A stretch of 33,050 nt of DNA from a bacterium (GTDB taxonomy: Bacteria > Krumholzibacteriota > Krumholzibacteriia > JACNKJ01): positions 1 to 33,050 of the forward strand of contig VGXI01000013.1 in the NCBI GenBank assembly GCA_016873475.1. The letters run 5' to 3'. This document shows, one piece after another, positions 5,851 to 27,343 of this stretch (its first letter is position 1; each line of letters starts with the position of its first letter). Both the position numbers and the translations under genes were made by a program. The notes under the pieces are model-generated. The model ran no database searches. It worked only from the letters and a program-made list of their open reading frames with translations, and was not told the origin of the DNA.

Positions 5851-7287
5851 TTACTTCCGGTGGTCGCGCACGAAGGCCTCGAGCTCGGGCAGCCCGCCCT
5901 GGAAGAGCAGGTACCCATCGTGGGTCTCGCGCTCGGTGATGTCGTCCGCCACCGGCGTTGTCATGATGCGCTTCAGCTCGGCGAGGTCGGCGCTCTGCCC
6001 CAGTGCCCAGCCCAGCTTCATGTAGGCCACCTCGGGCAGCATGTTAGCCAAGGGCACCACGCCCATCTCCATGATCTCGCGGCCCGTCTCGTAGACGTAC
6101 ATCTGCACGTAGCCCCAGAGCGTCTGCACGGTCATGAAGACGGCGACGCCCGCCGCGCGCGCCCGCTCGAGCGCCGGGTAGACCGGCCGGTTGACGTGCC
6201 CGAGCCCCGTCCCCGCGATGACGATGCCGCGGTAGCCGTGGTCGATGAGCGAATCGAAGATGTCCGCCTTCATGCCCGGGTAGTAGTAGACGATGGCGAT
6301 GCGGTCGTCGAAGACCGGCGTCGCCCGGAAACCGGCCAGCGCGGCCGCCTTCGCCTCGGCCCCCCGGCCCGCCACCGCCGTGCGGAAGCGGCGCTGGTTG
6401 TAGTCGCGGCGCAGGGGGCGCAGGCCTTCGCGGCTCACGGTGGCCAGTGGCGTGTCGCTGATCGTGCGGAAGGTGCTGCGGTAGCTCGAGTGCATCTTGC
6501 GCACGCGGGTGCCGCGGTGGAGCAGGCCGTACTGGTCGCTCGTCGGCCCGAACATGCAGACCATCACCTCGGCGATGTCGCCCTGGCCCGCGGTCACCGC
6601 GGCGTGGATCAGGTTCAGCGCCGCGTCCGAGCTGGGGCGGTCGCTGCTCCTCTGGCTGCCGACCATCACGATCGGCACCGGCGGGTTCTGGAGCATGAAG
6701 CTGAGCACGGCGGCCGTGTGGGCCATCGTGTCCGTCCCGTGGCCGATGACGATGCCATCCACGCCCTCGCGGATCGCCGCCTCCACCGCGCGCGCAGTGC
6801 CGATCCACTGCTCGGGTCCCATGTTCTCGCTGAAGACGCCGTAGAGCTTCTCGGTCTCGAGATTGCAGACCTCGGCCAGCTCGGGCACCGAGCCGTAGAG
6901 CTCCCCCGGCGTGAAGGCCGGAATCACGGCGCCCGTGCGGTAGTCGAGGCGGCTCGCGATCGTGCCGCCGGTGCCGAAGAGCCTGACGAAGGGCTTGCCC
7001 GCGTCGCGCGGGAAGGCCCTCTCGGGCACCTTGTAACGGGCTTCCTTGCGCCCCACCTCGACGAGCCGCGCCACGGTGTCGACCTGCAGGCCGACGTTGT
7101 AGCCACTGGCCAGCTTGAGGACGAGGTGCTCGGCATCGGCCGTTTCGCTGCGCGGCAGGATGATGCCGCGGAAGTCGCCCTGGCTGGTCTCGGCCTCGAC
7201 CTCGCTCCAGACGCCGACCCCGTGCCGCTCGAGCAGCGCGCGCCCAGCGCCGCGATAGCCCTTGAAGCGCTCCCCGCTTTCGCTCAT
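5851..7287 (-). CDS. gatD: Glutamyl-tRNA(Gln) amidotransferase subunit D (archaeal type)
   Basis: GatD releases ammonia from Gln or Asn and passes it to GatE, which converts Glu-tRNA(Gln) to Gln-tRNA(Gln). The 478-residue product has the two-part GatD layout. An N-terminal Tudor-like domain (about residues 20-85, including RGIILPRSETADAEHLVLKL and SGYNVGLQV) precedes an L-asparaginase-type amidase domain. The first catalytic-Thr motif FGTGGTIAS is at residues 104-112 and the second motif HGTDT at 183-187, followed by MAHTAAVLSFML. The N-terminal domain separates GatD from plain type I/II asparaginases. The start overlaps the gatE stop as ATGA, showing translational coupling. The family is regarded as characteristic of archaea, so its presence among clearly bacterial genes is unusual. 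An unrelated asparaginase role is unlikely given gatE next door. Confidence 0.9.
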   Translation of the reverse strand: MSESGERFKGYRGAGRALLERHGVGVWSEVEAETSQGDFRGIILPRSETADAEHLVLKLASGYNVGLQVDTVARLVEVGRKEARYKVPERAFPRDAGKPFVRLFGTGGTIASRLDYRTGAVIPAFTPGELYGSVPELAEVCNLETEKLYGVFSENMGPEQWIGTARAVEAAIREGVDGIVIGHGTDTMAHTAAVLSFMLQNPPVPIVMVGSQRSSDRPSSDAALNLIHAAVTAGQGDIAEVMVCMFGPTSDQYGLLHRGTRVRKMHSSYRSTFRTISDTPLATVSREGLRPLRRDYNQRRFRTAVAGRGAEAKAAALAGFRATPVFDDRIAIVYYYPGMKADIFDSLIDHGYRGIVIAGTGLGHVNRPVYPALERARAAGVAVFMTVQTLWGYVQMYVYETGREIMEMGVVPLANMLPEVAYMKLGWALGQSADLAELKRIMTTPVADDITERETHDGYLLFQGGLPELEAFVRDHRK

Positions 7288-9230
7288 CGGCGTCGCCCTC
7301 CCTTCGGCGCGGGGACCGGCGCCCCGCGCGTCGCGGCCGCGAGCTGCCCGCGCAGGCGCGCGCCGGCGCAGCTCACGCCCAGGCTCTCGCGCAGGCGCCC
7401 GAGGCGATAGCGTTCGAGGCTTTCGCCCGCCAGCGGTCGAGCCGGCGGCGGCAGGGCGGCGAGCGCGCTCGCCAGGCGCGCCGCCAGGGCCGCGTCGTCG
7501 AGTGGCGGCGGCGGCACGGGCCGCTCGCGCCCGCCGCTGCGCGCCCAGCGCGCGAGGGCGGCGCGGTCCGTCTCCCGCGGCGCCGTCGCCAGGAACTCCG
7601 GTAGCCAGTCGAGGCCCACCGCGTCGGGGAGACGCAGCCCCTCCCGCTCGAGCGAGCGCCAGTGGGCCGTGAGCGCGAAGGCCAGGCGTCGCAGCGCGGC
7701 CGCATCACCTTTCAGCGCGCCCCTCAGGGCGAGAAAGCTGCCCGCTCGCCCCTGGCGCTGGAGCTGGCCGGCCAGTTCGGTGCCGAGGCCCGCGGCGGCG
7801 AGCGCGGCCAACTCATCCCAGGGGCGCGGCGGCAGCGCGGCGCGCAGGGCCTCCCAGTCCCGCGTAGGCAGGGGCCGCGGCGGCAGGTCGGTGTCGGGGT
7901 ACATGCGGTCGGGTCCGGGCAGCACGCGCTCGAAGCGCGTGGTGCCGTCCGGCTGGGCCTGGCGCGTCTCGCGCGGCACGCCGGCCAGCGCCTCCTGCGC
8001 GCGCAGCTCGATCTCGCCGAGGGCGGTCTCGAGGTCGCGCGGCCCGCCCCAGACCATCAGCATCGGCGTGTCGTCGCTGACGCCGAGGATCTGCCGCACC
8101 CGGTGCCACTCGCTCCAGGTCGGCCCGTCGTCCAGCTGCTCGCTGGAGACCAGGTTCGGATTCCGATCCAGGCAGGCCACCACGCGCACGCGGTCCCGGA
8201 ATTCGCCGAGGAAGCGCAGGCCGGGCTGCACCTCCCGCCGCAAGACACCCTCGAAGCCCGGCAGAGCGATGACACCGAGCCGGTCCCCCCGCGCGAGCGC
8301 CTTCTGCACCGGCCGGTACTGGCAGTTCTTGAACAGGCCCGTCACCTCGGCGCGCAGGCCCTGGTAGCCGACGGCCGGCAACCCGCGCCCCGCCAGGATC
8401 TCGCGGATCTCGAGCAGGCTCTTCTGACGCAGGGCCTCGTTGTGCACGAGCCGGCCGATGGCCGGAATGCGGCTCACGCCCTTGATCTCGATGCGCGTGC
8501 CCCCGCGCACGCTCACGTTCACGTCCTGCCGGGCAGCGCCAGCGCCGCGGCGCACCTTGCCGGTGGCGCGCGTGAGCCGGCGCACGGCCTGCGCCGCCGC
8601 CTCGACCGCGGCCGGCGTGTGGAGCGCCGGCGCCGTGACGACCTCGACGAGCGGCATGCCCAGGCGGTCGGTGCGGTAGCAGCGCAGGTGCCCCTGGTCG
8701 GAGAGCTCACGGCTCGAGTCCTCCTCGATGCTGAGCTGGAGGATCGCGAGCGGCACACCGTCCACCGGCAGCTCGCCCTGGACGCCGAGGATCGCCGTGC
8801 GCTGGAAGCCGGTCGGGATCGAGCCGTCGAGGTACTGCTTGCGCATCACGTGCAGCTCGCCCACCGGTTGCAGGCCGAGCAGCAGGGTGATCTCCATGGC
8901 GATGCCAAGCGCCTCCTGGTCGATCTCGAAGGGCGGTGCGTCGTCCATCTCGTAGGTGCAGACGCTCTCCTTGTTGAGCCGGTAGAGGATCTCCTTGCGC
9001 GTCTTGAACTCCATGAGCGCCGTGCCGTCGTACTCGCCGAGCTCGGAGAGCGTGGGCCGCATGTGGCGGAGGATCTCGGCGTCGAAGGCGTCGCTGTAGC
9101 GGCCGGCCGGGCAGCGGCAGAAGAGCTTGCGGCGCGTCGAGAGCTGGACGTGCACCTCCAGGCCGGCCTTGAGGCCCAGGGCGCTGTAGTCGTCGGCGCT
9201 GAGGGTGCCGTACTCGGGCAGCTGGGACAT
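7284..9230 (-). CDS. gatE: Glutamyl-tRNA(Gln) amidotransferase subunit E (archaeal type)
   Basis: GatE binds Glu-tRNA(Gln), phosphorylates the glutamyl group with ATP and amidates it with ammonia from GatD. The 648-residue product starts with the GatB/GatE kinase cradle: GLKAGLEVHVQLSTRRKLFCRCP, then VCTYEMDD and IEEDSSRE. The pattern RQDVNVSVRGGTRIEIKGV is the typical GatB/E block. About residues 290-440 form the AspRS-like GAD insertion found in GatE but not GatB. The C-terminal part is the helical and tail region. I start it at 9230 (MSQLPEYG) because GGAG precedes it at a suitable distance and it is close to the putative promoter; an in-frame upstream ATG at 9266 lies on top of the predicted -10. 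It forms an operon with gatD. Confidence 0.92.
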   Translation of the reverse strand: MSQLPEYGTLSADDYSALGLKAGLEVHVQLSTRRKLFCRCPAGRYSDAFDAEILRHMRPTLSELGEYDGTALMEFKTRKEILYRLNKESVCTYEMDDAPPFEIDQEALGIAMEITLLLGLQPVGELHVMRKQYLDGSIPTGFQRTAILGVQGELPVDGVPLAILQLSIEEDSSRELSDQGHLRCYRTDRLGMPLVEVVTAPALHTPAAVEAAAQAVRRLTRATGKVRRGAGAARQDVNVSVRGGTRIEIKGVSRIPAIGRLVHNEALRQKSLLEIREILAGRGLPAVGYQGLRAEVTGLFKNCQYRPVQKALARGDRLGVIALPGFEGVLRREVQPGLRFLGEFRDRVRVVACLDRNPNLVSSEQLDDGPTWSEWHRVRQILGVSDDTPMLMVWGGPRDLETALGEIELRAQEALAGVPRETRQAQPDGTTRFERVLPGPDRMYPDTDLPPRPLPTRDWEALRAALPPRPWDELAALAAAGLGTELAGQLQRQGRAGSFLALRGALKGDAAALRRLAFALTAHWRSLEREGLRLPDAVGLDWLPEFLATAPRETDRAALARWARSGGRERPVPPPPLDDAALAARLASALAALPPPARPLAGESLERYRLGRLRESLGVSCAGARLRGQLAAATRGAPVPAPKGGRRR

Positions 9231-9264
9231 CGGGGCTCCGGTGGCTAAGGGCTTGCAGCCTCGC

Positions 9265-9294
9265 AAGGTACAGGAAGCGGCCGCCCAGTGCCAG
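9265..9294 (-). promoter_or_regulatory. Putative gatE-gatD promoter
   Basis: On the minus strand CTGGCA (9294-9289) and TACCTT (9270-9265) are 18 bp apart. The same pair with the same spacing (TTGGCA, 18 bp, TACCTT) is found upstream of the DUF362 gene at 27344. This would give a leader of about 28 nt before the gatE start at 9230. Confidence 0.4.
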
Positions 9295-9548: not shown

Positions 9549-10598
9549 ATGCTGACAAAGCTCAAGCTCGCCGCCGTTCTCATGCTCATGCTGGTCGCGA
9601 CCTCGGCGTTCGCCGTCCAGCGCGTGGTGCTCGTCGAGTACTTCACGAACACTAGCTGACCCTACTGCCCGACTGCGGACGCAGTCTTTGACGCTTTCGG
9701 CGACAATCACACGGACGACGAGGCCGCGCTCGTCTGCTGGCACATGAGCTGGCCCGGCTACGATCCCTTCTACCAGCACAACACCGTCGACAACAACGGC
9801 CGCCGCAGCTTCTATGGCATCAACGGGATACCGGCCTGGAAGATGGACGGTTACCTGAACCCCAATGCCGGCACGGTGAATGCGCTCTACGCGAGCGAGT
9901 CGGCCATTCCGACCCCGGTGACCCTGACGATCGTCGGCGCCTACGACGACGTCACCGGCTACGTTCAGTACACGGTGACGGCTTCCACGAACGAGACGCT
10001 GCCCACCGGCAGCTACCGCATCTTCGTCGCGCTGACGGAAACCGACATCTACTTCCAGGGCTCCAACGGCGTCCTCTGGCATCCGGACGTGATGCGCGAC
10101 TGCTTCCCGACCCACGCCGGCACGGACGTCACCTTCAGCGGAGGTTTCCCCCAGGTCGCAACGGTCTCGGGCGACTTCACGCTGAACTCCATCTACAACT
10201 GGAACAACTGCCGTCTCGTGGCTTGGGTGCAGGACGTCACTGGCCAGAAGAAGGTCCAGCAGGCGGTGGCGGCCTTCGTGAGCGGTCTCGACCTGACGGA
10301 CGCCCCCGCGGCGCCCGCCCGGGCGATGGCCCTCGGCGCGAACTACCCGAATCCCTTCAACCCCAGCACGACGATCCCAGTCAGCGTCGAGCGCACCTCG
10401 GCGGCGCGGCTGGACATCATCGCGCCTGACGGCCGGCTCGTGCGCACCCTTCACGAGGGCGAGCTGCCTGCGGGCACGCGCGAGTTCAGCTGGGACGGCA
10501 CCGCGGCCAACGGCCAGGGCGTGGCCAGCGGCGTCTATCTCGTGCGGCTGCACAGCGCGGATGGCCTGCAGAGCCGCCATCTGGTCCTCATGAAATGA
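9549..10598 (+). CDS. Secreted thioredoxin-like selenoprotein (UxxC) with FlgD-type C-terminal domain, paralogue 1
   Basis: One reading frame of 349 residues runs from ATG 9549 through an in-frame TGA (9657-9659, codon 37) to a normal TGA stop at 10596. A signal peptide occupies residues 1-22. The sequence VVLVEYFTNTS-U37-P-Y-C40-P follows, in the position of the CxxC of thioredoxin-fold proteins of the Omp28-related type. Later conserved blocks are DPFYQHNTVDNNGRR and YGINGIPAW, the latter with a likely cis-Pro. A beta-rich middle domain follows, and the last 90 residues are a FlgD-Ig-like sorting domain (GANYPNPFNPSTTIP). A SECIS-like hairpin lies just after the TGA. The redox function is inferred from UxxC; the substrate is unknown. 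Reading TGA as a stop would leave a bare signal peptide and an orphan domain with no start site. The next gene repeats the whole arrangement. Confidence 0.85.
9657..9686 (+). promoter_or_regulatory. In-frame UGA (Sec37) and SECIS-like hairpin, paralogue 1
   Basis: After TGA 9657-9659, GACTGC (9671-9676) pairs perfectly with GCAGTC (9681-9686) around the loop GGAC. The loop begins 18 nt after the UGA and opens with G. A small apical loop with a guanosine among its first two bases, 16-37 nt from the UGA, fits the general bacterial SECIS model recognised by SelB. Confidence 0.75.
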
Positions 10599-10655
10599 GC
10601 TCGCCTCCCTCCCCCTCGCGCGCGTTGTTTCGCGCGCGCGGGGAGGGAAGCGAGC
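10599..10655 (+). terminator. Long hairpin with loop TTGTTT after paralogue 1
   Basis: The arms 10599-10624 and 10631-10655 form an imperfect stem of about 23 paired bases around TTGTTT (10625-10630), with CG flanking the loop on both sides. It begins directly after the stop codon and precedes a separate classical terminator. Confidence 0.65.
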
Positions 10656-10701
10656 GTCCCAGCGCGCGCGAGCCGGAGGGCAGCTCGCTGGTTTGGAAGA
10701 C

Positions 10702-10728
10702 AGGGGGGGCCGCTGGGCTCCCCCTTTT
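10702..10728 (+). terminator. Intrinsic terminator after paralogue 1
   Basis: A 10-bp stem (10702-10711 with 10716-10725, one G-T pair) around a GCTG loop is followed by a run of T. It is nearly identical to the terminator after paralogue 2 at 11959-11985. Confidence 0.8.
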
Positions 10729-10783: not shown

Positions 10784-10833
10784 TATTTTGTCTCCACGCA
10801 GTGACCGCCACCCTCGCCCGCAAGGAGGACGCA

Positions 10834-11889
10834 ATGAACCGTCGCGCTCTCTGTCTGAGCATCCTGGCGTTGCTCGCCCTTGCGCTGCCAGCCAGCGCCG
10901 TCGAACGCATCGTCCTGCTCGAGAAGTTCACGAACACGGCCTGAGCGGCCTGCGGATCGGCGGAGCCGATCTTCGTGCAGTTCGTCCTGGACCACCCCGA
11001 CTGCGTCGCCTTCATGCCGCATGTCAACTGGCCCCAAAGCAACGACCCCTTCTACGTCCACAACACCGCCGACAACAACGGCCGCCGTGCGCTCTACGGC
11101 GTCAATGCCGTGCCCTTCGAGATCCTCGACGGCGTGCTCGAGCCGGTCTACTTCTACACCTACGCCCGCATCCTGGCCGCCTACAACACGCGCAAGGCGG
11201 TGCCGACCGACGTCACGCTGAGCTACACGGGCCTCTACGTGCCCAGCACAGGTCAGGTGGACTTCACCGTCACGGCCTCGACGACCAGCGCCCTGCCCGC
11301 GGGGGACTTCCGCCTGCACATCGTCCTCACCGAGAGCGGCATCTTCTACGACGCTGCCAACGGGATCGACTACCACGAATTCACGCTGCGCAAGATGTTC
11401 CCGACCTTCAACGGAACGAGCGTGAGCTTCAGCGGCGGCTTCCCGCAGACGGCGCAGGCCTCGACGAGCTTCACGCTCAATCCGGCCTACGTGCCGGCCA
11501 ACTGCAAGCTCGTCTACTTCCTGCAGAACCACACGACGAAGGAGGTCTTCCAGGCCGGCCAGATCACGCTGGACGACATCCAGGACCTGACGGACGTCGC
11601 CGAGCTGCCGCTGCGCCTGCGCCTGGGGGCGAACTACCCCAATCCCTTCAACCCGTCCACGACCATTCCCCTCAGCCTCGATGCCGAGGCCAGCGTGCGC
11701 CTGGCGGTGCACGACGCCGCGGGCCGGGAGCTGCGCGTGCTGCACGACGGCGCGCTGCCGGCCGGCAGTCGCGAGTTCCACTGGGATGGGCGTGACGCGG
11801 CAGGTCAGACCCTGCCCAGCGGCGTCTATCTGTTTTTTGTGACCGGCGCCGGCGAAACCGCCGGCCGGCGCGCGCTCTTGCTGAAATAG
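10834..11889 (+). CDS. Secreted thioredoxin-like selenoprotein (UxxC) with FlgD-type C-terminal domain, paralogue 2
   Basis: The frame of 351 residues runs from ATG 10834, preceded by the strong ribosome binding site AAGGAGG at 10822-10828. It continues through TGA 10942-10944 (again codon 37) to a TAG stop. The signal peptide ends near ASA (residue 22). The sequence then reads IVLLEKFTNTA-U37-A-A-C40-G, aligned with paralogue 1 without gaps from the start codon. Shared blocks include NDPFYVHNTADNNGRR, the YGVNAVPF segment, SFSGGFPQ, and the C-terminal GANYPNPFNPSTTIP domain. The cysteine at position 40 is kept, while the two residues between U and C differ (AA against PY). As before, the frame is open on both sides of the TGA and nothing else in the gene is broken. 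The inferred role is an extracytoplasmic thiol or selenol redox protein. Confidence 0.85.
10942..10971 (+). promoter_or_regulatory. In-frame UGA (Sec37) and SECIS-like hairpin, paralogue 2
   Basis: After TGA 10942-10944, GATCGGC (10955-10961) pairs perfectly with GCCGATC (10965-10971) around the loop GGA. The loop starts 18 nt after the UGA, exactly as in paralogue 1. CTGC (10950-10953) can also pair with GCAG (10977-10980) as a lower stem. The stem sequences of the two genes are unrelated, so the fold and spacing, not the sequence, are conserved. Confidence 0.75.
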
Positions 11890-11958: not shown

Positions 11959-11985
11959 AGGGGGAGCCGCTGGGCTCCCCCTTTT
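11959..11985 (+). terminator. Intrinsic terminator after paralogue 2
   Basis: A perfect 10-bp stem, AGGGGGAGCC (11959-11968) with 11973-11982, around a GCTG loop is followed by T residues. It is a near copy of the terminator at 10702-10728. Confidence 0.85.
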
Positions 11986-22479: not shown

Positions 22480-22695
22480 GTGTCCACCTTCGTGGTCAGC
22501 TTCCTCGGCGATCCCCAGCGCAGCTTCCGCGGCCGGGTCCGGCACGTGGCCTCGGGCGAGGAGGCCGTTTTCGCCTCGGTCACCGACCTGCTCCTCTTCT
22601 TCGAGGAGACGGCGGGCTTGACGGGCCGGGACCCCGAGACGGCGGAGACGGCCCCGCCCCGGTTGGAGACGCCGGAGGGGCATCGGGACGCCTGA
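22480..22695 (+). CDS. Small protein of unknown function (71 residues)
   Basis: The start is GTG with AAAGGAGG 6 nt upstream. The first 45 residues are well formed (FVVSFLGDPQRSFRGRVRHVASGEEAVFASVTDLLLFFE), and I have the impression of similar small proteins in other bacteria, though I cannot name a family. The tail is Glu/Thr/Pro-rich. Its last 116 bp overlap the 3' end of the regulator gene on the other strand. Confidence 0.7.
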   Translation: MSTFVVSFLGDPQRSFRGRVRHVASGEEAVFASVTDLLLFFEETAGLTGRDPETAETAPPRLETPEGHRDA

Positions 22696-25600
22696 GGCGC
22701 TCCCCCAGTTCGCGCAGGCGCGGCGAGGGCGGCAGGTCCAGCTCCTCGATGAGCAGGCGCTCGTAGCGCTGGTAGTCCGCCAGGGCCTCTCGGCGCTGGC
22801 CGAGGCGGCGCTGGGCCTCGATGAGATGCCAGTGCAGGCCCTCGGCGTAGGGATCGCGCTCCAGCCCCTGGCGGCAGAGGACCGGCAGCTCCGCCCAGCG
22901 CTCGCCCTTCGCCAGGAGGCCAAGCAGCCGCTCCAAGGCCCGCAAGAAGCGATCGCGCAGGCCTTCCCGTTCGAGCACCGCCATCTCCTCGTAGGGGCTC
23001 TCGGCCAGGAAATCGCCGCGATAGAGCGCCAGGGCGGCCCGCAGCGCCGCCTCCAGGCCCTTCGCGTCGTCGCGCCGCCGGGCGGCCTCCGCGGCAGCCA
23101 GCCCGGCCTCGAACTCGGCCACGTCGTAGCGGTGCCCGGCTCCCGGATCGAGCCGGCAGGCTTCCTGGCGGTGCTGCACATGCGAGGGGCCCTCGTCTCG
23201 ATCGAGCAGCCGCCGGAGCTGGAAGATGCTCTGGCGCAGGTTGCCGCGGCTGCGCTGCGGATCGGCTTCCGGCCAGAGCGCTTCGAGGATCTGCTCCTGG
23301 GGCACCCAGCGAAAGCGCTGTACGAGGAGCAGCTGGAAGAGCCGCAGCGCGCGGCGCGAGGGCCAGTCCTCGAGGCGCAGGCAGTCCTCGCCCCGCTCGA
23401 TCTCGAGCGGACCCAGGGCGCGGACGTGCAGCGAGTGCCCCGGCGCCGCGCTGAGCTCCGCGGCCGCGGCCTGGGCAGCGCCGTCCCGGCGGCCGCGCGC
23501 GAGCCGCGCGAGCAGGCCGCGCGCGCCGTCGCCACCCAGCCGGCCGAGCAGCTCCACGAGGCGCAGCCGGCAGCCCTCGTCCGCGCTCTCCGCGAGTGGC
23601 GCCAGGGCGGCGAGAGCCGCCTCCCCCATCGCATCGAGGGAACGGGTGGCGTGCTCCGCCTCGATCCCCCGCGCCAGTGCCGCCGCCCAGAGGCGCGCGC
23701 AGGCTGCTGGCTGCTGGACGCGCAGGGCGCGCTCGTGCTCCGAGGCGGCCAGGGCGCTCAGGAATTCGGCGAGCGGCGCGTCGGCGAGTCGGCCGGCGGC
23801 GAGGGCGCGATCCAGGCGCAGGCAGGCGAGCCGCCGTCGCTCGAACTGGGCGTCGGCGGCCCCCAGCAGGCGCTCGGCGCGCTGCCAGTGCGGCCCCTCG
23901 TGACCGGGCGCCGCGGCCAGACCGAGCAGGGTCTCGCAGTGCCCCTCGTGCAGACGATGCCCCACGCTGCGCGCCGCGGCCAGCGCCCGGCGCAGGCGGC
24001 GGCGGGCGATGAGCCGATTGCCCTCGGCGAGATCGAGTTCGGCCAGGGCCAGGTGCGGGATGGAGCGCATCTCCGCCTCCGCCTCGCGCTCACCCAGTTC
24101 CTGCGCCCGCTCGAGGTGCGCGCGGGCGGCGGTGTACTCGCCCTCGAGGAAGCGCAGGCGGCCGAGGCTGTAGTGCAGGACGGCCAGCATCGTTGCGTAC
24201 TCGAGTCGCTCGGCGATGCGCAGGGCCTCCTCGCAGCAGTCGGCGGCCTCGCGCAGCTCACCGGCCTCCACGAGCGCCCAGCCCAGCACGCCCAGGCTGT
24301 GGCAGATGCGCCGCGGGTCGCCCAGCTCGCGGAAGATGGCCACGGAGCGGCGGCCGGCGCGCTTCGCCTCGCGGAACTCGCCGCGCGGCCCGTAGACGTT
24401 GCCCACCAGCAGGTAGAGCACCCGCCCCTCGCCGAGCGCATCCTGGCGACGGCGGAAGATGCGCCCGGCCTGCACGAGCGCCGCGGCGCCCTCCTCCAGA
24501 CGCCCCAAGTCGCAGGCCGAGACGCCACGGAGGCCGAGCAGGCGCCCTTCCACGGCCGGCCGCAGGCCGGGCTCGGCCAGGGCGCGGTCGCACAGGCGCA
24601 GGCAGCTGCGGTAGTTGCCTTGACGCATGGCGAGCTGGGCGAGCAGGCTGAGCAGCTCGACACGCCGCGGGCCGCTCGCCGCCCGGCGCAGGGCAGCCCG
24701 ATAGGCGCGCGCCGCCTCGGTGAAGCGGCCCTGCACCTCGTGCACCCGTCCGAGCAGGTGCAGGGCCGAGGCGCTCGCTGCGAGCCGCGCTGCCGGCAGG
24801 CTGACGAGCAGCTCGCGGAGCAGGCTGTACTGGCCGGTGGCGAGCAGCTCCTCGCCCTGGCGCTCGCAGAGGGCGAGCAGCCCGTCGCTGTCGCCCGCCT
24901 CGGCGCTGGCCGCGGCGGCGCCGATCCAGTCGCCCCGCTGCCGCAGCAGGCCCGCCGCGCGGCTCAGCAGCGCCTGCCGCCGCGCTTCGCCCTCGTGCCG
25001 GGCGAGCTGCTCGCGCAGGCAGTCGCGAAAGAGCGCGTGCAGGCGGTAGCCGCCCGCCGCATCGGGGGCGAGGAAGCAGTTGCGCCGCGCCAACTCGGCG
25101 AGCCGCGCGGCCGCGTCGCGGCTTCCCAGCAGCGCATCGCAGAGCGCGGGCTCCTGGCGCGGCAGGATGGCGATCGCGCGCAGGAAGCGGCGGGTCTCGG
25201 CGGGTAGTCCGGCCAGCACCTCTTCGGCGAAGTAGGCGAACCAGTCGCCGCGCGCGGCGCGCAGGCCCGCGAGCGCCGCGGCGAGCGCGGCCGGCGTCGG
25301 CTCGGCAAGGCCCTGGAAGAGAATGCCCACGCCCGCCGCCCAGCCCTCGGTCAGGGTCGCAATGCGCGCTGCCTCCGCTGCCGGCAGCAGCTTGCCCGGA
25401 AAGCGCAGCGCATAGAGCGCCGCGATCTCCTCGGCGCTGAATGCCAACTCCGCGGCGCCGAGGCTGGCCAGCTCGCCGGCCGCGCGCAGGCGCGTCAGCG
25501 GCAGGTCCAGGGCTTCCCGCGAGAGAAGCGCCAGACACCCCGTGGCGGGTAGCTGGCGGAGCAGGCGCTCGAGCAGGGCCCGCACCGGCGGCGCTCCGGC

Positions 25601-25990
25601 CACGAGATGCAGGTCGTCGAGCACGACCAGGCAGGGCGCCGGCGCCGCGGCGAGCAGGGCCAGGGTGCCGCCGAGCCGGTCCTCGGGCTCCATCTCGCTC
25701 GCGGGATCGACGGGGCGGCCCAGGGCGCGGCGCAGGGCGGCCTCGAAGAGCCGCGCGAAGGCCGCGGAGTCGGCATCGCCCGCCTCCAAGCTCAGCCAGG
25801 CCACGGGACCCGCGTGCCGGCCCGCGGCGCGCGCGAGGAAGGCCGTCTTGCCGAAGCCCGCGCCCGCGGTGACGGCGAGCACGCGCCGACGTCGACAAGT
25901 CTCCCAGAGCTCGTCGAGGCGAGGGCGCTCGAGGTACAGGGCCGGCAGCCGGGGCGGCTCCAGCTTGGTGAGGACGAGCGAGGATGGCAT
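22580..25990 (-). CDS. Large transcriptional regulator: STAND ATPase, TPR, winged helix and BTAD
   Basis: The 1136-residue product has a Walker A motif at residues 41-50 (TAGAGFGKTA) and Walker B near CLVVLDDLHLV, as in MalT/NB-ARC-type STAND ATPases. A long helical repeat (TPR-like) region covers about 380-840. Near 852-945 is an OmpR-type winged helix (ALGPLEIERG, then WPSRRALRLFQLLLVQRFRWVP and LWPEADPQRSRGNLRQSIFQLRRLL). Residues 950-1095 form the bacterial transcriptional activation domain (BTAD). In classical SARPs the DNA-binding and BTAD domains come first; here they are last. ATG 25990 (MPSSLVLTKLEPPRL, typical of MalT-like N-termini) is chosen although the frame is open to 27319; GGGTGA is a modest ribosome binding site. 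The signal and target genes are unknown. Confidence 0.9.
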   Translation of the reverse strand: MPSSLVLTKLEPPRLPALYLERPRLDELWETCRRRRVLAVTAGAGFGKTAFLARAAGRHAGPVAWLSLEAGDADSAAFARLFEAALRRALGRPVDPASEMEPEDRLGGTLALLAAAPAPCLVVLDDLHLVAGAPPVRALLERLLRQLPATGCLALLSREALDLPLTRLRAAGELASLGAAELAFSAEEIAALYALRFPGKLLPAAEAARIATLTEGWAAGVGILFQGLAEPTPAALAAALAGLRAARGDWFAYFAEEVLAGLPAETRRFLRAIAILPRQEPALCDALLGSRDAAARLAELARRNCFLAPDAAGGYRLHALFRDCLREQLARHEGEARRQALLSRAAGLLRQRGDWIGAAAASAEAGDSDGLLALCERQGEELLATGQYSLLRELLVSLPAARLAASASALHLLGRVHEVQGRFTEAARAYRAALRRAASGPRRVELLSLLAQLAMRQGNYRSCLRLCDRALAEPGLRPAVEGRLLGLRGVSACDLGRLEEGAAALVQAGRIFRRRQDALGEGRVLYLLVGNVYGPRGEFREAKRAGRRSVAIFRELGDPRRICHSLGVLGWALVEAGELREAADCCEEALRIAERLEYATMLAVLHYSLGRLRFLEGEYTAARAHLERAQELGEREAEAEMRSIPHLALAELDLAEGNRLIARRRLRRALAAARSVGHRLHEGHCETLLGLAAAPGHEGPHWQRAERLLGAADAQFERRRLACLRLDRALAAGRLADAPLAEFLSALAASEHERALRVQQPAACARLWAAALARGIEAEHATRSLDAMGEAALAALAPLAESADEGCRLRLVELLGRLGGDGARGLLARLARGRRDGAAQAAAAELSAAPGHSLHVRALGPLEIERGEDCLRLEDWPSRRALRLFQLLLVQRFRWVPQEQILEALWPEADPQRSRGNLRQSIFQLRRLLDRDEGPSHVQHRQEACRLDPGAGHRYDVAEFEAGLAAAEAARRRDDAKGLEAALRAALALYRGDFLAESPYEEMAVLEREGLRDRFLRALERLLGLLAKGERWAELPVLCRQGLERDPYAEGLHWHLIEAQRRLGQRREALADYQRYERLLIEELDLPPSPRLRELGERLRRPDAPPASPTGAGPSPPSRGPGPSSPPSPRRRGAGR

Positions 25991-26176
25991 GGCGCGGTCA
26001 CCCGGCGGCTGGCGGTCGCAATCCAGTATGCCGCTTCCCGGGCAGGCACTCAAGCGAACCCGCCGGCGTCCGCGCGGGGTCCGGCGCTTTCCCCGCATTG
26101 CTCGCCGGCGGGCATGACGGTTGCCCCCGCGTTCAGCGGTATCGCCGCACCGCCATCGCGAATGGAAAGGACTGCC

Positions 26177-27259
26177 ATGCCCGCCTCGGACGGCAAGCGC
26201 CAGATCTGGATCATCCCGGGTGAATCGCCGGGGGGCTTCGTCCCGATCCCGGCGGACCGGGCGCCCGGTCACCGCGTCGTGGCCGCGCCCATCGCGCGGC
26301 GACAGCGCCGCTCCGAGACGCGTCCGCTGCGCCTGCTCGCGCGGCTCTACGGGCTCGGCCCCCTCGGCGCCCTGTTCGGAGGCGCGACGCGCGGGGAGCA
26401 GATCCTGGCCGGGACCGCCCTCGGCGCCGGAGTCCTCTGGCTGCTGCTGCAACTGCCGCCCGTCGCGGCGGGCCTGCCGGCCCTGCCGCGGCTGGGCCTC
26501 GCGCTGCTTTGCGGCGGCCTCGCGCTGGCGGCCTGGTCCCGCGAGTTGGCCCTGGCCGCGGGCCAGCGGCGCCTCAACCGCGACCGCCTGCCGGCCTGGA
26601 TGCGCGGCAGCGGCGGGGCGGCGCTGCTCGGCCTGACCCTGCCCGGATTCGGGCTGCTCCTCGCCGGACGGGCGCGGCGCGCGGCCCTTGCCTTCGTCAA
26701 TGCGGGACTCACGCTGGGCGCGCTCTGCGCGGCGGCCGGCTTGATCCTGACGCCCGGACCAGGAAAGCCGAGCGCCGCCGTCGAACTGTGCCTCGGTGGG
26801 ACGCTCCTCGCGGTCGCGCTGGGAGCCCTCCTCTGGGTGGCGGGCGCCCTCGACGGCGGCCGGCTCCTGGCCAATGCCGCCCGCCGGCCGCGCGCGGTGC
26901 CGGCGGACCGCTTCGCTCTCGCCCTGCTCCTGGCCCTGATGCTCTTCGGCGCCGCCTTCGATCCCGCCGAGCTGGCCAGCGACCTCGACGCCATCGCCGC
27001 CTCGCTGCAGGCCCGCGACTTCCGCCACGTCCCGCTGGCCTGCGAGCTCTGGGCCCTGCGCCTCGATCCCTCCCGTCCGGAGTACGCGCTGCGCGCGGCG
27101 GATCTCGCCGCCGCCAGCGATCGGCCGACCCTGGCCGGCGCCCTCCTCTACTCGGTGCGCGAGCGCTGGCAGGTCTGCACGGTTCGCTTCGGCCGCGAGT
27201 GGCCGCGCCGCCCGCGCCTGGACGGCCACGCGGCGGTGGGCGCCGCGCTCCCCCAGTAG
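26177..27259 (+). CDS. Multi-spanning membrane protein of unknown function
   Basis: The start is ATG 26177 with AAAGGA 8 nt upstream; in-frame upstream ATGs lack such a site. The 360-residue product has a hydrophilic N-terminus (residues 1-60, rich in Arg and Pro). About six hydrophobic segments follow between residues 65 and 265, with Arg-rich loops. A soluble helical C-terminus (LQARDFRHVPLACELWALRLDPSRPEYALRAADL) resembles a TPR-like pair. I recognise no family. It is divergent from the large regulator gene, so regulation by that protein is possible but unproven. Confidence 0.7.
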   Translation: MPASDGKRQIWIIPGESPGGFVPIPADRAPGHRVVAAPIARRQRRSETRPLRLLARLYGLGPLGALFGGATRGEQILAGTALGAGVLWLLLQLPPVAAGLPALPRLGLALLCGGLALAAWSRELALAAGQRRLNRDRLPAWMRGSGGAALLGLTLPGFGLLLAGRARRAALAFVNAGLTLGALCAAAGLILTPGPGKPSAAVELCLGGTLLAVALGALLWVAGALDGGRLLANAARRPRAVPADRFALALLLALMLFGAAFDPAELASDLDAIAASLQARDFRHVPLACELWALRLDPSRPEYALRAADLAAASDRPTLAGALLYSVRERWQVCTVRFGREWPRRPRLDGHAAVGAALPQ

Positions 27260-27267
27260 CGCCCGAC

Positions 27268-27297
27268 TTGGCATGGCCGGGCGCCGCGGTGTACCTT
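27268..27297 (+). promoter_or_regulatory. Putative promoter of the DUF362-polyferredoxin operon
   Basis: TTGGCA (27268-27273) and TACCTT (27292-27297) are 18 bp apart, with a leader of about 40 nt. It is the closest relative of the gatE promoter. Confidence 0.45.
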
Positions 27298-27343
27298 TGC
27301 GGAGTGGGATGTCCGCCATGGCTCCCGGAGCCGGAGGTCACCG

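Follow-up and report, generated by a model that had tools for sequence, protein, structure and literature searches.

The closest described relatives of the proteins considered here belong to a selenoprotein family first reported in 2008 from ocean metagenomes, GOS_C, for which that report gives 74 sequences with selenocysteine (Sec) and 312 with Cys, a thioredoxin-like (Trx-like) fold, and SECIS-like elements (PMC2398784). Table 1 of a 2026 review carries the family of NCBIfam model NF045500 as “hypothetical protein GOS_C” with a UxxC motif, and the legend to its Fig. 2 models the bacterial SECIS (bSECIS) as a stem of 6–8 bp with a loop of 3–4 nt, a G in loop positions 1–2, 18 nt spacing, and an MFE below −7.5 kcal/mol (PMC13188914).

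The window analyzed here, a whole stretch of 33,050 nt from a bacterium of the phylum Krumholzibacteriota, contains 2 tandem genes, A and the downstream B, whose products are 46% identical and both have NF045500, “Omp28-related selenoprotein,” as their best NCBIfam match over most of their length. They score 63.1 and 51.6 bits where the cut-off is 200, a value reached by none of the 80 genomes of the phylum that were searched. We file both proteins as Omp28 (PF11551), as relatives and not strict members of NF045500. They are real, under-annotated selenoproteins of a kind already known, since GOS_C was reported in 2008 and NF045500 exists, while the branch found in this phylum is divergent and is missed by the curated model. 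A literature search for selenoproteins together with Omp28 found nothing under that family name, the GOS_C name leading instead to the 2008 paper (PMC2398784), and one for selenoproteins together with type IX secretion (T9SS) found nothing beyond one paper on rabbit nutrition.

A tandem gene pair with in-frame UGA codons

The features of the 2 genes are collected in Table 1. When the in-frame TGA is read through, each protein begins with a signal-peptide-like hydrophobic N-terminus (judged by eye) and continues into FTNTSUPYC or FTNTAUAAC, then an Omp28 domain, then FlgD_ig, so that homology runs in frame on both sides of the UGA, with the signal-like start and FTNT.UxxC before it and Omp28 and FlgD_ig after it. 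Both proteins exceed the gathering threshold of PF11551 (42.5 and 42.7 against 34.9).

Table 1. Features of genes A and B and their flanks in the window
Feature	Position	Strand	Detail
Gene A, Omp28-related selenoprotein paralogous to B	9549–10598	+	
Gene A in-frame TGA, read as selenocysteine	9657–9659	+	Residue 37 from ATG 9549
Gene A TGC	9666–9668	+	Second Cys position of UxxC
Gene A SECIS-like hairpin	9671–9686	+	GACTGC-GGAC-GCAGTC; 6-bp stem, 9671–9676/9681–9686; loop start +18
Gene A Omp28 domain (PF11551)	9810–10280	+	
Gene A FlgD_ig/T9SS type A sorting-like tail	10398–10559	+	
Terminator-like hairpin, gene A/gene B spacer	10702–10725	+	Consensus scan; weak, shuffled region gives a mean of 1.3 such sites
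AAGGAGG 5′ of gene B	10822–10828	+	
Gene B, exported Omp28-related selenoprotein	10834–11889	+	351 residues; stop TAG
Gene B in-frame TGA, read as selenocysteine	10942–10944	+	Residue 37; UxxC position one
Gene B TGC	10951–10953	+	Second Cys position of UxxC
Gene B SECIS-like hairpin	10955–10971	+	GATCGGC-GGA-GCCGATC; 7-bp stem, 10955–10961/10965–10971; loop 10962–10964, loop start +18
Gene B Omp28 domain (PF11551)	11095–11568	+	
Gene B FlgD_ig tail	11671–11850	+	

A first question is whether these codons are simply true stops, with the upstream parts being remnants of pseudogenes, assembly errors, or genes expressed from an internal start only. This is what ORF calling with translation table 11 would imply, since it yields truncated ORFs from 9744 and 10975, as standard annotation would, and such a cut at the UGA would cause the active site to be missed. 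The part before the TGA is nevertheless conserved in frame, with its signal-peptide-like start and FTNxxU motif, and the TGA falls in a single column in 53 distinct sites from many genomes, with one TGA per match. We consider true stops barely credible, and the recurrence of TGA at one column refutes this reading together with its pseudogene and assembly-error variants.

Reading through UGA in 2 adjoining genes could also reflect a genome-wide reassignment of this codon to a normal amino acid. TGA is, however, the terminal codon of gene A (10596–10598) and of gatE, and the frames under TGA = U continue into unrelated-looking sequence. The genome moreover encodes the machinery for Sec: selA (440 bits), selB (332 bits, with a C-terminal fragment that shares its frame), a tRNA-Sec with anticodon TCA (72.7 bits), and selD (338 bits). 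In relatives, the site is occupied by Cys. The terminal use of TGA refutes reassignment, to which we give practically no credence. An in-frame TGA is also present in selD, and the hairpin after it, GGGUCC-GGA-GGACCU, again has a GGA loop that begins at +18. Loop and register are thus common to the 2 genes studied here and to a selenoprotein gene of the same genome that is unrelated to them.

At least 4 UGA-containing Omp28 relatives occur in the genome of the window, including 2 on other contigs (C48, L051, TGA at 548; C149, L104, TGA at 460), and Cys forms are found in it as well (C40, L062; C219, L063). Downstream of the gene A stop, positions 10599–10725 contain a long GC-rich inverted repeat and the terminator-like hairpin, and a similar GGGGGAGCCGCTGGGCTCCCCCTTTT sequence lies at about 11959–11985, 3′ of gene B. 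The hairpin in the spacer faintly suggests that A and B are separate transcription units.

Elsewhere in the window, on the minus strand, gatE (TIGR00134, 390 bits) adjoins gatD (TIGR02153, 478 bits) at 5851–9266, both over their cut-offs, and the 2 constitute a GatDE-type Glu-tRNA(Gln) amidotransferase. GatDE is regarded as archaeal, whereas the genome in which it occurs here is bacterial and has T9SS genes. A large ORF resembling MalT/AfsR regulators (1579 aa, matches under cut-offs) lies at 22580–27319, also on the minus strand.

Hairpins downstream of the UGA codons

The apical loops are 4 nt in A and 3 nt in B, on upper stems of 6 bp and of 7–8 bp (the eighth pair in B being a possible G-U at 10954/10972), within the 3–9 nt and 4–16 bp used as SECIS criteria. 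Both loops have a G in their first 2 positions and both start at +18, with 17 nt in between, inside the UGA-to-loop range of 16–37 nt, and the 44-nt segments fold with an MFE of −9.5 (A) and −20.6 kcal/mol (B) where −7.5 or lower is asked. The original prediction had described a 7-bp stem around a GGA loop 18 nt after the UGA of gene B, which is exact to the base, and had paired it with a gene A hairpin of different sequence at the same offset, which we find as well. The residues encoded there do differ (PYCPTADAV versus AACGSAEPI), and it had been argued from this that the shared structure is not a by-product of protein conservation.

How far this argument reaches depends on the gene. When the downstream sequence is shuffled by base, 80 of 50,000 trials for A and 56 of 50,000 for B give an equally good hairpin at exactly +18. 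When the same peptide is recoded with synonymous codons, the +18 hairpin is found in 705 of 200,000 recodings of B (0.35%) and in as many as 40,939 of 200,000 recodings of A (20%). The hairpin might be only a consequence of the amino-acid sequence and carry no signal, the codons of Ala-Asp/Glu-Ala/Pro being naturally self-complementary in GC-rich DNA; the 20% for A speaks for this idea and the 0.35% for B against it. The by-product argument of the original prediction is thus strong for B and weak for A taken alone, and it is the comparative data that settle the point. Folding energies give modest z-scores (44 nt, A −0.65 and B −1.82; hairpin with short flanks, A −2.87 and B −2.44). A fifth of the recodings of A do equally well, and the single-sequence folding energies of the 44-nt segments are unremarkable. 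The case rests on comparative data and not on either hairpin alone.

Sec and Cys forms across the phylum

When 80 genomes of the phylum were searched, an alignment of our own detected relatives in 33 (E 1e-10) and NF045500 did so in 42 (E 0.001). The comparison was made on the loci of the own-alignment search, 60 fetched stretches, one distant Saprospiraceae locus (a Cys form), and the window, with sites made unique on the 60 bases from the site onward, and all matches flagged with one TGA were taken in. At the column of the first UxxC residue, the resulting 89 distinct sites have TGA in 53, TGC in 26, and TGT in 10, with no other codon; because matches without a TGA were taken in only in part, the 36 Cys sites are no census of Cys forms and 53 to 36 is no frequency.

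We counted a hairpin as present when its loop lay at +16 to +21 with a G in the first 2 bases and its score was at least 12. By this measure one follows 46 of the 53 TGA codons (2 more have a weaker one and 5 have none) and none of the 36 Cys codons, a difference with a Fisher p of 3e-18 if relatedness is ignored. The UGA sites divide into the group of A and B themselves (7), a PSAVAG clade (28), and an ATW clade (18), a split (35 and 18) made by motif first and agreeing with the tree except for L054, which stands apart on a weak branch. All 35 sites of the A/B group and the PSAVAG clade have the hairpin. In 34 of them it is at +18, where it is formed by 15 distinct stem-loop sequences, and in the remaining one (L022), with a single sequence, it is at +20. 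In the ATW clade, a hairpin at +16 is present at 12 sites and a weak one at another, and 5 of the 18 have none by the same measure (L106, L109, L073, L110, and one of the 2 sites in L086, the TGA at 2604). A laxer search (+16 to +37, loops up to 9 nt, score at least 12) leaves 3 of the 18 ATW sites with none, finding hairpins at 15, and also picks up 5 of the 36 Cys sites. The ATW sites lacking a hairpin may have a SECIS in another register or of irregular form.

UGA homologues with no hairpin at this position had been named in advance as the finding that would count against the prediction. In the A/B and PSAVAG clades there are none; the ATW clade does contain them, and of all our results this one speaks most strongly against a simple rule of a +18 hairpin after every UGA. 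Across the family as a whole, the link between hairpin and UGA is thus imperfect. Since the ATW clade has its hairpin at +16, in weak form, or not at all by the measure used, the exact +18 is a property of the A/B and PSAVAG clades and not of the whole family.

The covariation proposed as a check is found across the homologues, including at pairs that join third codon positions. The register with a 4-nt loop is represented by 29 sequences, from A and the PSAVAG clade. Their outer pair, +12/+27, takes the forms T-A, C-G, G-C, and A-T and is unpaired in 3 of 29; the pair +15/+24 is C-G or T-A and is unpaired in 5 of 29. In each case both partners are third bases of codons, and the changes are therefore nearly silent in the protein. 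One exact duplicate among the 29 was left out (28 used), and in 27 distinct rows 3 pairs vary in both partners. Such cells number 9 where shuffling gives 1.3, and the covariation score is 0.185 against 0.057 shuffled, every slid register being worse. In 5 sequences the loop is followed by Arg or Ser codons; in these the inner pairs of the 4-nt-loop structure are broken, and a stem of 4–5 bp with a 5-nt loop is found instead, with the same start at +18.

A natural experiment is provided by paralogues in which Sec and Cys forms adjoin and the hairpin is retained or lost along with the UGA. In another genome from the same family, 3 Omp28 relatives stand in tandem in the order UGA-Cys-UGA (L053, G004:C43, 444–3658). 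The Cys copy is nested among UGA copies (SH-aLRT 99 and 100) and is without the hairpin; given this placement, a loss of Sec in this copy is the most likely history. The ATW clade also has a Cys copy nested within it (L103), likewise with no hairpin. At least 4 Sec/Cys changes are needed on the tree, which comes from a quick search and has many weak forks.

For the group as a whole, these results refute the idea that the hairpin merely follows from the peptide, whatever might be said of gene A alone: it is absent from all 36 Cys sites, and the stem shows compensatory changes at third/third positions (CCT..GGA, CCC..GGG, CCG..GGC; TCC..GCG, CCT..GCA) that are nearly silent in the protein. We regard that idea as very improbable. 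Support for the central proposal of the original prediction, a bacterial SECIS recoding UGA as selenocysteine, comes from the full Sec machinery in the same genome, the exchange of Sec and Cys in one column across all 89 sites, the restriction of the hairpin to UGA sites, and the covariation. As a reading of sequence, SelB-guided Sec insertion is strongly supported, and A and B very probably both depend on their hairpins for it.

Probable export and function, and relation to known families

If this is correct, the signal peptide would be made first, after which SelB with Sec-tRNA(Sec) would bind the hairpin through its GG-starting loop 18 nt past the UGA, and selenocysteine would be inserted, so that the thioredoxin-like N-terminal region, ahead of the Omp28 domain, carries a UxxC redox motif. 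The protein would then be exported by its signal peptide and probably delivered to the cell surface by the type IX secretion system via its C-terminal tail, where it would most likely act as a thiol/disulfide (selenenylsulfide) oxidoreductase. What the data show are the in-frame UGA, the hairpins with their conservation and covariation, the Sec machinery, and the T9SS core genes; that Sec is in fact inserted, that SelB binds, and that the protein sits at the surface and acts on a substrate as a redox enzyme is inferred.

For the route of export, the tail of A scores 27.7 against the T9SS sorting domain TIGR04183, over its cut-off of 23, and that of B scores 18.7, under it; core T9SS genes are present in the genome (SprA 492 bits, PorU 430 bits, both over cut-off with adjoining in-frame pieces). 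Surface delivery by T9SS is moderately supported for A and less so for B, and if it does take place, this would be a case of selenocysteine at the cell surface. Over the UxxC part, a family profile matches thioredoxins of solved structure (2axo, 3.1e-5; 1fo5, 3.4e-5), which, together with the motif itself, would point to a thiol/selenol redox role. AlphaFold models of the 2 window proteins alone had a mean pLDDT of 49, too low for use. Sec might also be inserted into a protein that is a structural adhesin or a surface binder of selenium or metal and not a redox enzyme. Members of Omp28 are named outer membrane proteins, we know of no activity for any of them, and the tail points to a surface protein. 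Exchange of Sec and Cys within UxxC/CxxC and the similarity to thioredoxins argue against an adhesin or binder, which we consider unlikely, and on balance we lean toward a redox role at the surface for A and B.

Taken together, these observations may describe a large and so far uncounted radiation, in this phylum, of selenoproteins that are exported and probably delivered to the surface by T9SS. It would comprise 3 UGA clades, with members in no fewer than 37 of the 80 genomes searched (a hand count), all below the score of the known family. The SECIS register would be +18 in 2 clades and +16 in the third, perhaps dispensed with in a few, and the hairpin would have shaped the protein, with Ala-Glu/Asp/Val at the G-rich loop in Sec forms versus Ala-Asn in the nearest Cys clade. 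We give this joint reading an even chance.

Among known proteins, the 35 kDa hemin binding protein (PDB 5y1a) matches weakly over the CxxC part (E 0.005), which is insufficient for kinship. We take it to be HBP35 of P. gingivalis, a T9SS-exported protein with a thioredoxin domain, and it presumably carries Cys and not Sec. With respect to Omp28, the Pfam match starts C-terminal to the UxxC region, and ordinary members with Cys at the Sec site were seen only in relatives from Krumholzibacteriota. The hairpins of A and B show no departure from the bSECIS model, their spacing being toward the short end and unusually constant. The likeness to NF045500/GOS_C, as far as the 2008 report and the review entry describe that family, lies in the UxxC motif, the Trx-like region, the occurrence of both Sec and Cys forms, and downstream SECIS-like elements. 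The genes here differ in scoring far below the cut-off of the family and in forming a tandem pair, and A and B have a FlgD/T9SS-type tail.
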